From a virus, in the IMG/VR virus record IMGVR_UViG_3300027659_000151, positions 1 to 29,770 of that record: 29,770 nucleotides of DNA. One strand, given 5' to 3'. The notes beneath the pieces are model-generated. The model was not told where the DNA came from. It was given only the letters and a program-made list of their open reading frames with translations, and searched no databases. Made by a program: the position numbers and the translations under genes. Numbering within the stretch: the first letter of the stretch is position 1; the number at the start of each line of letters is the position of its first letter. Below are positions 3,598 through 10,296 of the stretch, piece by piece.

Positions 3598-3921
3598 TTA
3601 GGGGGAGTCGATAGGGCCGCTGAAGTTTGTCCGCCGCTCTTGCTCCTCTTCGGGCGTCCAGCGCGAGCGGACCTCCGCTGCCCGCTCCGCGATCTGGGCC
3701 TCGGTGGGATCGACCTCGAGCCGCTTCCCAGGCCGCCGCCGGCCACGGCCGACCCTGACGTCTGCCATCTCGGCCCTGAGTTTGCTGTCGAGCAGCTGCC
3801 GCGTGATGCCGACCCGCTCCGCGGCTTCGCACCTCGTGCAGCCGTCCTCGAGGAGGTAGGTCCGCAGGAGCCGCTCCTGCTCCGGCGTGATCGACTTGGG
3901 ACGGAACCTGGACAGCTTCAT
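3598..3921 (-). CDS. HTH DNA-binding protein, candidate late regulator
   Basis: A 107-aa basic protein. Residues about 15-50 (RLLRTYLLEDG, CEAAERVGITRQLLDSKLR) form a helix-turn-helix. A Gly/Arg linker (VGRGRRRPGKR) then leads to a C-terminal segment DPTEAQIAERAAEVRSRW. That C-terminal pattern recurs in the 76-aa early protein at 6086-6316. Its ATG overlaps the RusA stop by one base (TGATG). It is the last early gene before the fibre and HNH late genes, the position in which phages often keep a late activator or antiterminator. That role is inferred; a small terminase or transposase fragment seems unlikely. Confidence 0.65.
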   Translation of the reverse strand: MKLSRFRPKSITPEQERLLRTYLLEDGCTRCEAAERVGITRQLLDSKLRAEMADVRVGRGRRRPGKRLEVDPTEAQIAERAAEVRSRWTPEEEQERRTNFSGPIDSP

Positions 3922-4761: not shown

Positions 4762-5616
4762 CTAGGATGCCTCCTGCGCGAGTTTCTCTGCCCAGGCTCT
4801 CCGAGTAGCCTCGAGCCGCGCAGCGTCGTCAGAGTCCCACACGCGAGGCGGAGGACGGTCGTCCGGCCGCTGGCCTACTCCGGCCCGCTGCTCGCGCGGG
4901 TTGTCGAACTGCCCGCCGAGGACCTTGTCGACGAAGCCTTCGGCCACCAGCTGCGGTAGCGTGACGGGATCCCGGAAGTATCGACAGCGCGGCAGGGCCT
5001 CGATCGCCGCCAGGGCCTTGGCGAACCAGCCATCCTCCCCGAGGCGGTCGGCGACCCGGTCGGGCGGGTCGGGGAGTTTCCACGGGCGACCGGTGCCGGC
5101 GGCCCAGGCCTTCCGCAGCGTCTCCCAGCCTGCCGGCTCCTGGTTCCCAGGCGCAGCACTCCCGGGGGAAGAAGAAGAATTTCTATCTCCTCTATCTCCT
5201 CTCTCTAGGGCGCGCGCCGACTCCTTCGGGGGCGCTGTGCGCCCCCGCTGGGGGCGCGTGCTCGCGGAGGCCTTGTCGACCTCGTGCCGGACTTGCGTTA
5301 AAGCCCGTGACTTGGCGGACTTAGAGAACCGACGCTCCCATCCGGGGATCGCCACAGTTCCGTTGTCCGCGTCAATCGAGAGCCAGCCTACATCCTGCAC
5401 GGCAAACCAGAAGGCCTCATCGCCGCCGCAGACCCTCGCCAGGAGCCGAACCGACATCCTGGCAGAGCCGTCGGAGGAGTTTAGGGACGACCAGCCCCAG
5501 AGCATCACGAGCCGGCCGACGACCTGATCGGCCGGCAGGCCGGTCCGGTCGACGAGCTCGAGGACCTCCGGCTTTTGGGGTAGGCATACGTCATACGGGA
5601 TCCATTCACCGGCCAT
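4762..5616 (-). CDS. Putative phage replication initiator / DnaD- or O-like protein
   Basis: A 284-aa protein. The N-terminal domain (MAGEWIPYDVCLPQKPEVLE, then RLVMLWGWSSLN) resembles the winged-helix part of phage replisome organisers: a tryptophan-rich start, then a KPEV segment and a helix that measures copy or strand state. A Ser/Arg/Pro-rich linker (about residues 110-160) leads to a second helical domain with WETLRKAWAAGTGRPWKLP and a small WFAKALAAIEALP region. The likely job is origin binding and helicase loading. A GGAGG lies six bases before the ATG, and the gene overlaps the wHTH gene by 11 nt. No helicase or polymerase is encoded, so it probably recruits host enzymes. No origin was identified inside it. 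Confidence 0.65.
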   Translation of the reverse strand: MAGEWIPYDVCLPQKPEVLELVDRTGLPADQVVGRLVMLWGWSSLNSSDGSARMSVRLLARVCGGDEAFWFAVQDVGWLSIDADNGTVAIPGWERRFSKSAKSRALTQVRHEVDKASASTRPQRGRTAPPKESARALERGDRGDRNSSSSPGSAAPGNQEPAGWETLRKAWAAGTGRPWKLPDPPDRVADRLGEDGWFAKALAAIEALPRCRYFRDPVTLPQLVAEGFVDKVLGGQFDNPREQRAGVGQRPDDRPPPRVWDSDDAARLEATRRAWAEKLAQEAS

Positions 5617-5932
5617 AGGTTGCCTCCTTGCGCTTCCAAACCGTCTCCGGCCGCCCGCTCGCGGACAGCCGCTTTAGTCCCGTCGCCTCGACCAGCCCGG
5701 CCCGACGTAGCCCAGCCATCCGGCGGGCGACCCGCTGCTCAGACATCCCGGCCCGGTCGGCGATCTCGTCCTTCGATCCGGGGCCGACGACCAGGGCGTC
5801 GAGGATCCTCCGCTCGTGATCCGCGATCACCCCGCCGGCCATGCTGGCGGCGGTCTTCGAGGTCTCCGGGTCAGCCCGGCGGGCTTGCCAGAGCGGTAGG
5901 TCCGCGAGGCTCTCCGAGTAGTAATCGCTCAT
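5606..5932 (-). CDS. Winged-helix DNA-binding protein
   Basis: A 108-aa protein. After a polar N-terminus (MSDYYSESLADLPLWQARRA) it has a winged-helix domain from about residue 42 to 100. Helices ILDALVVGPGSKDEIADRAG and SEQRVARRMAGLRRAGLVE are followed by a wing ending ETVWK. The pattern is like MarR/ArsR-type phage regulators that sense nothing but DNA. A GGAGG lies before the ATG at 5932; longer frames upstream lack such a site. It sits directly before the replication initiator-like gene and overlaps it, so it could control replication or act as its partner. It is also a candidate repressor for the operator sites at 8562-8795. Confidence 0.7.
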   Translation of the reverse strand: MSDYYSESLADLPLWQARRADPETSKTAASMAGGVIADHERRILDALVVGPGSKDEIADRAGMSEQRVARRMAGLRRAGLVEATGLKRLSASGRPETVWKRKEATYGR

Positions 5933-6783: not shown

Positions 6784-6928
6784 CTTTGACTCCCTTCGTG
6801 GTTACTGTCGTTCTCTTCCGCCGCATTCGTTTCTGTAGCTCTGTCCAGTCGTCTTGAATCCCCGCCTCGTATTCCATGAATTCAAGCCAGCTGCGATTCG
6901 CTGGCGACGGTGGGACCTCGTTAGGCAT
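6719..6928 (-). CDS. Small ORF between the Sak4-like and SSB-like genes
   Basis: A 69-aa frame starting MPNEVPPSPANRSWLEFMEY. The first ~45 residues look protein-like; the last ~25 are Gly/Thr-rich and run 65 nt into the start of the SSB-like gene in another frame. A GGAGG lies six bases before its ATG, which overlaps the Sak4-like stop by 8 nt, so initiation is credible. The function is unknown. It might be a small linker protein of the recombination module, or translation through it may simply couple the two flanking genes. Confidence 0.5.
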   Translation of the reverse strand: MPNEVPPSPANRSWLEFMEYEAGIQDDWTELQKRMRRKRTTVTTKGVKDGLDDGRDAGGTGASGTGTGS

Positions 6929-7868
6929 TCGCCGCCTCCGGCTCGATCACCTCGTGACGGGCCGCGATGCCGGAGGCCAGCGCCTCCGCCTGCTCGGCGG
7001 TGAGCTGCCCTTCGCTGGCGAGGACGTCGATCCTGTCGGCGATCTTCCCGAGGGTCCGGACGTCGCTCGCGGTCGCGATGTAGTCCATGACCTGGTCGAA
7101 GAGCGGCTGCGGAGGCTCGACCTCCCGAGGCGGGACCGCTCGCCGCTCGACCTTCGCCACCTCCGGGACGGCCCCGGAGGACAGCCAGTCCCGCAGCTGC
7201 TTCCCGAGCTCCTCGCCGGCCTCGCGGACGATCGCGTCCTTTAAGAAGATCGCCCGCGACTTCGTGACGACGAGCTCATGCTCCGCGTTGACGTCGCCGA
7301 CGACGTCGAACTCAAACTCCATGCCCTCCCGCTGCACGGGCTGCATGCCGATTTTCTTGACCGACGTTTTCCCGGTCCGCTCGTCCTTCTCGACGACGTA
7401 CTCCGTTTTCGATCGCATCGTCGCGATGATGTGCATGGACGAGCCGAGCATGCCGTCCCGGAGTTGGTTATGGAGCGGGGTCGCCTTTCCCCAAGCGTCG
7501 ATCCCGCCGCCGCCCCGCTTCTTCGTGGCGTCGACAAACTCCAGGATCCCACCCTTGCCGGCCCAGGCATGCGACAGGCTGTCGATGATCAAGACATCGA
7601 CGCCCGCCTTCTCGGCCTCGCGGAGCCCCTCGAGGAATCGGTCGACCTCGTAGGAGTCCAACTCCATAACGTCGAACTCCAGGCCCCGCTCGCCCGCGTA
7701 CAGGCTTGCCGACCCGCGCTCGGTGTCGATCACCGCCACGCGGCCGCTGTCGCCGGCCAGACCGCGGGCGATCCGCAGGGCCGTCATGGTCTTCCCGCTG
7801 CCGGCCGGGCCGATGAGCCCTAGTCGGAGTTTGCTCGCCGCCTTCGTCGCCTTTTTGAATCCGGTCAT
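6921..7868 (-). CDS. Sak4-like RecA-fold recombination ATPase
   Basis: A 315-aa AAA_24/Sak4-type protein. Walker A is GPAGSGKT (residues 20-27). A VAVIDTERGSAS strand follows (about 44-55). Walker B is VDVLIIDSLSHAW (about 90-102, with D96). A sensor-like strand HIIATMRSK and a beta hairpin with Lys-rich KTSVKKIG come next. The C-terminal ~90 residues are an extra acidic helical region. Sak4 proteins are phage single-strand annealing or strand-exchange proteins of the RecA fold that work with a phage SSB, and an SSB-like gene follows here. Its ATG overlaps the upstream small membrane protein gene by 4 nt (ATGA). Confidence 0.85.
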   Translation of the reverse strand: MTGFKKATKAASKLRLGLIGPAGSGKTMTALRIARGLAGDSGRVAVIDTERGSASLYAGERGLEFDVMELDSYEVDRFLEGLREAEKAGVDVLIIDSLSHAWAGKGGILEFVDATKKRGGGGIDAWGKATPLHNQLRDGMLGSSMHIIATMRSKTEYVVEKDERTGKTSVKKIGMQPVQREGMEFEFDVVGDVNAEHELVVTKSRAIFLKDAIVREAGEELGKQLRDWLSSGAVPEVAKVERRAVPPREVEPPQPLFDQVMDYIATASDVRTLGKIADRIDVLASEGQLTAEQAEALASGIAARHEVIEPEAANA

Positions 7869-8334: not shown

Positions 8335-8553
8335 CTAGAAGGTGTCGAGGTCCGAAGTCGGGACGACGATCCACGCCCCGGCGATCTCGACCGACAGCCG
8401 CCGCTCGTCGCAGGAGAGGACGTATCCGCTCCACCGCTTGCCGGCCGTCGTTCCGTTGACCCAGTCGCCGACCGCCGGCAGGGCGGGGCCGCCGCCGTAG
8501 GTCTCAGCCATGCCGGCGGCCGCTGCGGTGTATTCGTTTTCGTGGGCATCCAT
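8335..8553 (-). CDS. Small beta-rich early protein
   Basis: A 72-aa protein starting MDAHENEYTAAAAG. The second half (VGDWVNGTTAGKRWSGYVLS, DERRLSVEIAGAWIVVP) is a likely small SH3/KOW-like beta barrel, judged from the alternating pattern. The ATG at 8553 is chosen because a GGAGG ends five bases before it; an ATG 12 bases upstream has no good site. It is the first gene after the promoter with operator repeats at 8562-8623, so it should be made first on induction. Function unknown. Confidence 0.6.
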   Translation of the reverse strand: MDAHENEYTAAAAGMAETYGGGPALPAVGDWVNGTTAGKRWSGYVLSCDERRLSVEIAGAWIVVPTSDLDTF

Positions 8554-8561
8554 GCCATCCT

Positions 8562-8583
8562 CCATTTGCGATGTAGTTAGAAC
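8562..8583 (-). promoter_or_regulatory. Operator-like site C (partial copy)
   Basis: A 22-bp stretch that keeps the TAGAAC half and the GATGT core of sites A and B but has lost the GTTCTA half. It shares the base run TAGAACTCT with site B. Its end is 33 bp from the end of site A, about three helical turns, which would allow cooperative binding. It lies just upstream of the 72-aa gene ribosome site. Confidence 0.5.
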
Positions 8584-8594
8584 TCTGGCGGGAG

Positions 8595-8616
8595 GTTCTA
8601 GGGATGTGGTTAGAAC
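8595..8616 (-). promoter_or_regulatory. Operator-like site A
   Basis: Perfect inverted repeat GTTCTA-N10-TAGAAC. The spacer is nearly the same as in site B (both hold GATGTGG), so the copies are related beyond the arms. It coincides with the -10 and spacer of the promoter at 8595-8623, so a bound protein would block that promoter. A dimeric HTH repressor or Xis-type regulator is the natural ligand, which is inference. Confidence 0.65.
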
Positions 8617-8623
8617 CTGTCAA
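8595..8623 (-). promoter_or_regulatory. Sigma70-like early promoter
   Basis: On the minus strand a perfect -35 TTGACA (8618-8623) is followed after exactly 17 bases by TAGAAC (8595-8600), which matches four of six -10 bases. The -35 lies in the palindrome CCTGTTGACAGG. Operator-like site A covers the spacer and -10. It would drive the leftward early operon starting with the 72-aa gene. The tail of the 50-aa gene overlaps it. Confidence 0.6.
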
Positions 8624-8762
8624 CAGGAAAAACCCTGGCGACCCATTGCACAGCCTCGGCCGCGAAAAACACGGCCCGCGCTAGCTGCGAATCGGTCCCG
8701 AGCTCCTGGCCGAGACGCACGAGAACCAGCGCCCGAATCATCCCGTCCCAGTCGATCTTCAT
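8610..8762 (-). CDS. Small protein within the control region, 50 aa
   Basis: A 50-aa protein starting MKIDWDGMIRALVLVRLGQE, with a second helix (SQLARAVFFAAEAVQWVARV). An AGGAGG lies six bases before the ATG, among the best sites in the window. Operator-like site B ends 12 bases upstream of the start codon, and the stop falls inside site A. It may be a small immunity or anti-repressor type protein, by position only. Too short to classify. Confidence 0.6.
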   Translation of the reverse strand: MKIDWDGMIRALVLVRLGQELGTDSQLARAVFFAAEAVQWVARVFPVDRF

Positions 8763-8773
8763 CCCCGCCTCCT

Positions 8774-8795
8774 GTTCTAGTGATGTGGCTAGAAC
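8774..8795 (-). promoter_or_regulatory. Operator-like site B
   Basis: Perfect inverted repeat GTTCTA-N10-TAGAAC, 179 bp from site A and with nearly the same spacer. It lies between the HTH gene at 8835-9056 and the ribosome site of the 50-aa gene. A -10-like TAGAAC is present, but no good -35 is 17 bases upstream, so this could be an operator only, or a weak promoter. Confidence 0.55.
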
Positions 8796-8834: not shown

Positions 8835-9056
8835 TCAGGAGGCCCGACGTTTCCGCGGGCGGCCGGTGGAGGGCTTCTCTTTGGCCTTCCGCTTCACCTC
8901 GTCCATGTCGTAGACGAGCGCCCGGTCGTGAAGGTGTCCACACCAGAGGTCCCCGGCCAGGGCGAGTTGGCGGATCCTGCCCATCGTGCAACCGAAGATG
9001 TCGGCCGCCTCGCGGGTCGAGATATAGGTCTTCTTCGGGTCTGGTTTGAACGGCAT
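8835..9056 (-). CDS. Excisionase-like HTH protein
   Basis: A 73-aa basic protein. YISTREAADIFGCTMGRIRQ with LALAGDLWC and RALVYDMDEVKRK is a MerR/Xis-type winged helix of the HTH_17 kind, as used by excisionases and small phage regulators. The ATG at 9056 is chosen because GGAGG lies eight bases before it; the frame can be extended to a TTG without a site. It is next to the attachment site and integrase and just upstream of operator-like site B. It could direct excision, repress the early promoter, or both. Confidence 0.72.
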   Translation of the reverse strand: MPFKPDPKKTYISTREAADIFGCTMGRIRQLALAGDLWCGHLHDRALVYDMDEVKRKAKEKPSTGRPRKRRAS

Positions 9057-9130
9057 CCGCATTGCCTCCGAGCCTATCAACGGCCGGCGGCGATTCAATC
9101 GCCCCAGGCCGTTTGCCTTTCGACATCCTG

Positions 9131-9384: not shown

Positions 9385-10296
9385 ATGTACAAACGATCCG
9401 GCCCGGCGACTCTTGGGGCCTACGTCTCCCAATACGCTCTTTATCACGACATCCGGCCGGAGACGCTCCGGCAGTATGAGATCTCCGTAGCCCTGTTCGA
9501 GCGCTGGGCCGGTGGGCCGGTCCCACTCGAGCAGCTCGACGCTGCGAGCGTCTCCTCCTGGCTGCGGGACTACCAGGCGAGCGGCCGCGCCCCGAACACG
9601 GTCCGCTCGAAACGGAACCATGTCGTGATCATGTGGCGGGCCGCCTCCGACGACGGGCTCTGCGATCTGCCGGCGAGGCGTGTCCGCCCCGTCCGCTGCC
9701 CGTGGATCCCGCCGGTCGCCTGGACCCGCGAGGAGGTCGAGCAGCTGCTCGCCGCCTGCTCGAAGCTGAAGCGCTGGCATACCTCCGGGATCCGCCGGTC
9801 GGAATGGTGGGCGCTGGCGATCCGGGTCGCCTGGGACGCGGGCCTCCGCTGGGAGGATCAAGTCGCCCGCCTCCGGATCGATCAGGTGAGGCCAGACGGG
9901 ACGATCGCCTTCGGTCAGTCGAAGACGGGCCGCGTCGTCGTCCCCCAGTTGTCCGCAGCCACGCTCGAGGCCCTGGCAGCCTCCCTGGCGGGCGGTCGCC
10001 GGGAATTGGTAACGCCCTGGGACTGCAGCCACGAGACCTTTACGCGGCAATTCCGGAGGCTGGTAGCCCTGGCCGGCATCCGGGCCGGAAGCTGGAAGTT
10101 TATAAGGCGCTCGAGCGCGACCGACTGCGAGGTCCAGAGGGAGGGCTCGGCGACTGAACATCTCGGACATCGGCCGGGATCGCCGATCGCCAGGATCTCC
10201 TACATCGATCCGGCAATCGTCGCCGGCAGTAGGAGCCGCGTTGTCCCTCGTTCGCTTCACGCCCCCCCCCCCCCCCCGGGGGGGTCTTTCGGATAG
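9385..10296 (+). CDS. int: Tyrosine recombinase (phage integrase)
   Basis: A 303-aa protein and the only plus-strand gene. A SAM-like N-terminal core-binding domain (about residues 8-90: TLGAYVSQYALYHDI, LRQYEISVALFERW, NTVRSKRNHVV) is followed by the catalytic domain. Active residues visible are R155 in GLRWED, K180 in FGQSKTG, R241 in KFIRRSSATD (where K238 replaces the usual His of HxxR), H262 in LGH and Y273 in ISYID. The substitution is one of the accepted variants in this family. It should recombine the attP tRNA half with a host tRNA-Arg gene. The last ~12 residues are coded by a 16-C/7-G tract, so slippage would alter only the tail after the catalytic Tyr. The ribosome site is weak. 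Confidence 0.93.
   Translation: MYKRSGPATLGAYVSQYALYHDIRPETLRQYEISVALFERWAGGPVPLEQLDAASVSSWLRDYQASGRAPNTVRSKRNHVVIMWRAASDDGLCDLPARRVRPVRCPWIPPVAWTREEVEQLLAACSKLKRWHTSGIRRSEWWALAIRVAWDAGLRWEDQVARLRIDQVRPDGTIAFGQSKTGRVVVPQLSAATLEALAASLAGGRRELVTPWDCSHETFTRQFRRLVALAGIRAGSWKFIRRSSATDCEVQREGSATEHLGHRPGSPIARISYIDPAIVAGSRSRVVPRSLHAPPPPPGGSFG

Follow-up and report, generated by a model that had tools for sequence, protein, structure and literature searches.

Operator-like direct repeats and a small excisionase-fold protein in an exchangeable putative immunity cassette of uncultured phages

The window analyzed here is the whole stretch of 29,770 nucleotides of IMG/VR virus record IMGVR_UViG_3300027659_000151. 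On its minus strand lie a promoter-like sequence (PH), the gene of a 73-aa winged helix-turn-helix (HTH) protein, a 50-aa open reading frame (ORF50), a candidate early promoter (PB), and the MDAH gene, and three copies of a short repeat (sites A, B, and C) are set among them (Table 1). ORF50 sequences aligned among relatives differ mainly at third codon positions, and the protein carries no recognizable DNA-binding domain. In several relatives (L013, L064 to L069, and L094), the position of ORF50 is occupied instead by a hydrophobic-looking ORF of about 23 aa (MNxxxWIELL..LLRIxAAG). No relatives of the 73-aa HTH protein or of the integrase were found in 50,697 named phage records. Farther downstream, the AAA_24 protein has relatives in 409 named phage records.

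Table 1. Features of the putative cassette and its surroundings, by position in the window
Feature	Position	Strand	Description
Third HTH gene	3598-3921		
Second HTH gene	5606-5932		
AAA_24 gene	6921-7868		Protein of the Sak4-like recombination ATPase kind
MDAH gene	8335-8553	-	Product MDAHENEY...; follows the cassette and opens the early operon
Site C	8566-8583	-	Word GTTCTAACTACATCGCAA; expected initial transcribed region, 33 bp from site B
PB	8595-8623	-	Candidate early promoter, TTGACA-N17-TAGAAC; spacer between -35 and -10 taken up by word B
Site B	8599-8616	-	Word GTTCTAACCACATCCCTA; within the PB spacer; candidate operator
ORF50	8610-8762	-	Conserved 50-aa protein; inside the cassette; stop codon within site B
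Site A	8778-8795	-	Word GTTCTAGCCACATCACTA; follows the HTH stop codon and precedes ORF50; kept in 12 of 12 distinct window-type loci
HTH gene	8835-9056	-	73-aa MerR/Xis-like winged HTH; leads the swapped cassette; putative repressor that would recognize the words
PH	9071-9098	-	TTGAAT-N16-TAGGCT, resembling a promoter; immediately precedes the HTH gene; contains no operator word
tRNA-Arg(ACG)-like segment	9155-9229	-	Reported by ARAGORN
Tyrosine integrase gene	9385-10296	+	phrog_1; runs divergently to the HTH gene; not part of the swapped cassette

Within the tRNA-like segment, about 50 bp of the 3' half are identical in related phages, and this shared half is likely an attP core within a tRNA gene. 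Once the phage had integrated, the HTH gene would have the host tRNA immediately upstream, on its own strand. As two scans of named host genomes found no lysogen or host genome, a temperate life is deduced from the integrase and the tRNA-like attP. Several window-type relatives (L043, L045, L047, L049, and others) possess a different integrase, about 28% identical to that of the window, together with the same kind of HTH protein, repeat words, and layout.

The preliminary description had reported three related repeats around a TTGACA-N17-TAGAAC promoter, two of them 33 bp apart, and all of this was borne out. GTTCTA-N10-TAGAAC occurs twice without mismatch (8595 to 8616 and 8774 to 8795) and in none of 100 dinucleotide shuffles, a third, partial copy lies at 8568 to 8584, and the promoter elements were located on the minus strand (8623 to 8595), with the starts of sites B and C 33 bp apart. 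Read on the minus strand, which is that of the early genes, the three copies are AGTTCTAGCCACATCAC, GGTTCTAACCACATCCC, and AGTTCTAACTACATCGC, all in the same direction. Besides, the pattern AGTTCTARCYACATCRC with up to three mismatches has exactly three matches in the whole window (i.e., sites A, B, and C) against 0.13 expected.

Scanning IMG/VR for the exact pattern yielded related contigs, most of which are fragments, and 17 loci were obtained with the 73-aa HTH protein as query. We found that the three sites are equally placed in 12 distinct loci, the window included, and that sites B and C are 33 bp apart in all 12. The distance from A to B is 178 to 184 bp across window-type loci and 674 bp in L055, in which a gene is inserted between site A and ORF50 and site A still adjoins the HTH gene. 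No further exact copy of the word beyond the three sites was present in nine related records of 4.6 to 38 kb, and the B-plus-C pattern was confined to this phage group in the scans made. Thus, the search for the repeat in related phages, which the preliminary description had proposed, revealed sites conserved in position and restricted to this region. Stoperators spread over the genome were considered and rejected, since there are only three sites, all within the cassette.

The same comparison did not uphold the 22-bp palindromic form that had been ascribed to these operators. Conserved across 36 sites is GTTYTARCNACA-N3-C-N-A, an asymmetric element that keeps one orientation. In relatives, the right arm TAGAAC becomes TACAAC, TAAAAC, TACAAG, CAAAAG, or AACAAG with the left word kept, and its loss is seen in relatives whose HTH protein is less than 90% identical. 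At site C, the right arm TAGAAC is absent in all loci compared. At site B, where the right arm coincides with the -10 hexamer, it keeps TANAAC among window-type loci, as expected of a -10 element. Because the right arm drifts while the left word stays, these alignments identify the element as an asymmetric direct repeat, and the symmetric 22-bp operator as a local feature of the closest relatives. A palindrome bound by a symmetric dimer was rejected on the same grounds, although the dyad is present in the window. The palindrome pattern also occurs in two contigs without similarity to the window (L003 and L007), which we took as chance matches. In the L042 group, site A (word at 1116 to 1127) is a perfect 18-bp inverted repeat, TTGTGGTTCTAACCACAA, whose center differs from that of the 22-bp palindrome, and it may be a two-sided high-affinity site.

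By way of the downstream AAA_24 gene, we obtained loci among which were more distant phages with HTH proteins only 27 to 43% identical, and three further scans filled in the families. In these relatives, the order HTH gene, word, small ORF, word, and MDAH gene is kept. We distinguished four HTH families with the same layout and different words: G1, that of the window (GTTYTAACCACA), G2 (ATTTSACGAT), G3 (GGTTCCGAT or GTCCCGAT), and G4 (AATTTGAGAT or AATTGGAGAT). The word pair of L014 consists of TTGACAAATTTGAGATCGGACAAC and AAATTTGAGATAGGACAAC, and within G2 both words have shifted together from ATTTGACG to ATTTCACG. When the A and B regions of 32 genomes were scored against each other, the mean was 11.3 within a genome and 5.35 between families, and 29 of the 32 genomes lay above the 95th percentile of the between-family scores. 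In a permutation of 12 representatives, the observed sum was reached in 0 of 100,000 trials (p about 1e-5), a value that is indicative because the scoring windows were picked after the sequences had been viewed. The exceptions were L072 and L077, with no word match, and L067, with a 7-point match only; some word families are short (8 bp), which makes individual cases weak. Across these genomes, the regulator and its putative operators co-vary.

An all-against-all comparison of the loci revealed pairs that are 89 to 97% identical upstream (integrase and attP) and 89 to 96% identical downstream, with a block of about 480 bp at near-random identity in between. This block spans the start codon of the HTH gene to that of the next gene, and the words change with it. 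For L045 (G1) and L088 (G4), identity is 96.5% in the 1,500 bp preceding the HTH start codon and 95.0% in the sequence that begins at the MDAH start codon, and the intervening 457 to 486 bp are 54.3% identical compared with 53.4% for shuffled sequence. The upstream match stops 5 nt past the second ATG of the HTH gene, and the downstream match starts about 2 nt before the MDAH ATG. The same replacement was found on both sides for L048/L088 and L006/L083, at the upstream breakpoint only for L050/L090 (97%), and at the downstream breakpoint for L066/L093 (92%). In such pairs, the HTH proteins are only 32 to 41% identical and the words differ, with integrase and attP little changed. As judged from these alignments, the putative repressor-operator block is exchanged as a unit between otherwise similar phages.

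The HTH gene and ORF50 are the only genes inside the exchanged block, so that the integrase, host factors, and the second and third HTH proteins are disfavored as partners of the words. Co-variation alone cannot separate the HTH protein from ORF50, since both are always exchanged together; the evidence as a whole points to the HTH protein, and less to ORF50, as the likely partner. Among the three HTH proteins that the preliminary description had proposed as binders, that of the cassette fits. The other two, encoded outside the swapped block, do not: the second has relatives across all word families (37 to 54% identity), and the third has a detectable relative in L009 only.

The HTH protein has a predicted recognition helix at residues 25 to 34 and a basic C-terminal tail (TGRPRK). 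Among 34 distinct family members aligned, 24 matched Pfam HTH_17 with an E value of 0.01 or less and nine matched MerR_1, and the window protein itself reached only E = 0.036 against HTH_17, below the gathering score. Its AlphaFold model is a beta-alpha-alpha-beta-beta-alpha winged HTH (pLDDT 75), for which the best Foldseek matches were Pukovnik Xis, BldC, and RdfS (probability 1.0, with E values of only 0.01 to 0.1), and a weak match to a PHROG excisionase family was also obtained. The model and the profiles accord with a winged-HTH DNA-binding fold of the HTH_17/MerR-like small proteins. According to published work, proteins of this kind occupy direct repeats in head-to-tail fashion, and RdfS acts as a repressor at its own promoter (PMC11963761). 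Head-to-tail binding fits better than a dyad, because the word is asymmetric and the known relatives of the fold bind direct repeats.

PB was recognized as a consensus match, and a promoter scan demanding T as the final -10 base did not report it. In window-type loci, its TTGACA is invariant and its -10 is TAGAAC, TACAAC, or TAAAAC. The spacer is 17 bp at PB and 16 to 18 bp in the other families. In G2 to G4, word A itself lies between the -35 and -10 of a TTGAC-type promoter, and the second word of G2 and G4 lacks a promoter of its own. Immediately ahead of the HTH gene, the PH of relatives takes the form TTGATT-like, N16, TANNCT; TTG[AT]NN-N16/17-TANNNT occurs at this position in 31 of 37 distinct upstream regions, against 0.09 expected in shuffles. 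In G3 (L072 to L081), a sequence resembling the word, e.g., GACCCGTTTAAACCGGGTC or GTTCCCGTATCGGTAC, is present in the promoter of the HTH gene itself; this suggests autoregulation in that family only.

Because the sites are conserved in position, confined to the region, and co-vary with the neighboring HTH gene in swaps, they are very probably operators, and very probably ones that lie over an early promoter of a lysis/lysogeny or immunity switch. Of the genetic switch that the preliminary description had considered probable, the operators over an early promoter thus gained support from conservation and co-variation, and their palindromic form was lost. We estimate at about three in four the probability that the repeats are operators of the 73-aa HTH protein and that the HTH gene, site A, ORF50, site B with its promoter, and site C make up an immunity cassette of about 480 bp. 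The HTH gene would be transcribed from its own operator-free promoter PH, and its product would bind word B in the -35/-10 spacer of PB as well as word C just downstream. Bound at both, it would block RNA polymerase and turn the leftward early operon off. At word A, just past its own gene, it would stop read-through from PH or silence a weaker start. The strong part of the word would be GTTYTARCNACA, with a weak C-N-A part set 12 bp beyond the first CTA. The word is likely occupied by monomers arranged head to tail, in the manner of BldC and Xis, instead of by a symmetric dimer. Since its word differs, a phage with another cassette would not be repressed (heteroimmunity). We infer from sequence HTH binding, repression over activation, lysogeny, and superinfection immunity alike.

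The cassette may be regulated by activation instead, with the HTH protein binding within the promoter spacer in the fashion of MerR; the MerR-superfamily fold and the place of the word between -35 and -10 would suit this. MerR activators correct over-long promoter spacers of 19 to 20 bp. The spacers here are 16 to 18 bp and the -35 is near consensus, and for this reason repression is favored and an activator seems unlikely. Besides, word C is located downstream of the promoter and the second word of G2 and G4 is not part of one. The HTH protein might also be mainly an excisionase (recombination directionality factor), with the words as its sites and a role tied to attP and integrase. This would accord with the closeness of its fold to Pukovnik Xis and RdfS, with the weak PHROG match, and with the position of its gene next to attP, but integrase and attP are 89 to 97% identical in pairs whose HTH proteins are 32 to 41% identical and whose words are others, and the word persists where the integrase is replaced by one about 28% identical (L043 to L049). 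The word copies are all located over promoters beyond the opposite end of the HTH gene, and none occurs between the HTH and integrase genes in the window and nine related records, where weaker sites are possible. We therefore regard a mainly excisive role as quite unlikely.

An operator over an early promoter could be the SOS site of a host regulator such as LexA, and the phage encodes other HTH proteins that might use it. This is very improbable, because the words differ in otherwise near-identical phages and change with the HTH protein of the cassette, and the two other HTH proteins show the distribution among relatives given above. Still less credible is an action in RNA, in which a hairpin (GUUCUAG-loop-CUAGAAC) before the ribosome site would serve as a translational operator. 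Site A of the window can indeed pair over 7 bp directly upstream of AGGAGG, and the second word is often near a Shine-Dalgarno sequence. However, relatives keep the loop word but not the pairing arm, which becomes TACAAG, CAAAAG, or AACAAG and is absent at site C throughout; in G2 to G4, word A lies between -35 and -10 and would not be transcribed from that promoter. The hairpin was rejected on account of the unconserved arm and this word position.

A broader view, to which we incline only slightly, is that an excisionase/BldC-type winged-HTH protein of about 75 residues is the sole immunity repressor of widespread uncultured temperate phages, in an interchangeable cassette of at least four word families that recombines at two conserved start codons. 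Few phage groups have had their repressor-operator immunity described in detail, and here a very small protein of excisionase fold appears to take on this task. The swapping of cassettes, each version with its own word, looks like discrimination between self and rival among these phages. The near-isogenic phages supply matched sets of protein and DNA word, so that short synthetic DNA would allow direct tests both of the recognition code of small MerR/Xis-type winged-HTH proteins and of how heteroimmunity evolves in uncultured phages.

The exchange resembles that of lambdoid immunity regions, in which repressor and operators are swapped as a unit between otherwise similar phages, although the block is much smaller here (about 480 bp), the repressor fold is unrelated, and the breakpoints are at two start codons. 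No published description of this cassette was found in the part of the literature searched. In mycobacteriophage BPs, the gp33 repressor has an operator (OR) between the -35 and -10 of the early promoter PR, and BPs shares with our phages an operator in the spacer of an early lytic promoter, a second operator nearby, and a compact int-attP-repressor region (PMC4557955). BPs differs in that rep and cro are divergent, the repressor gene contains attP, and the 12-bp half site is palindromic (PMC4557955), whereas here the regulator has attP on its upstream side, the word is asymmetric, all cassette genes run in one direction, and no cro was identified. Cluster A mycobacteriophages are heteroimmune, and their motif distances track repressor distances (PMC6550527). 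Those such as L5, Bxb1, and Trixie likewise have asymmetric sites in the same orientation and motifs that change with the repressor (PMC6550527 and PMC9283540), but their repressor is larger and as many as about 30 sites are scattered over the genome, compared with three sites in one cassette and a 73-aa protein here. Phage 186 Apl and P2 Cox are also small Xis-type proteins acting at early promoters, and Apl has seven promoter repeats one turn apart as well as att sites, beside a separate CI (PMC7498355); in our phages there are three words, none at attP, and no CI was identified. BldC, Pukovnik Xis, and RdfS share the fold by sequence profile and Foldseek, but they are developmental regulators or excisionases, whereas the protein described here is exchanged independently of integrase and attP. 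Thus, repressor-operator heteroimmunity is already known, and what appears new is a small regulator of Xis/BldC fold as a putative repressor, independent of integrase and attP, in a block of about 480 bp with breakpoints at start codons.
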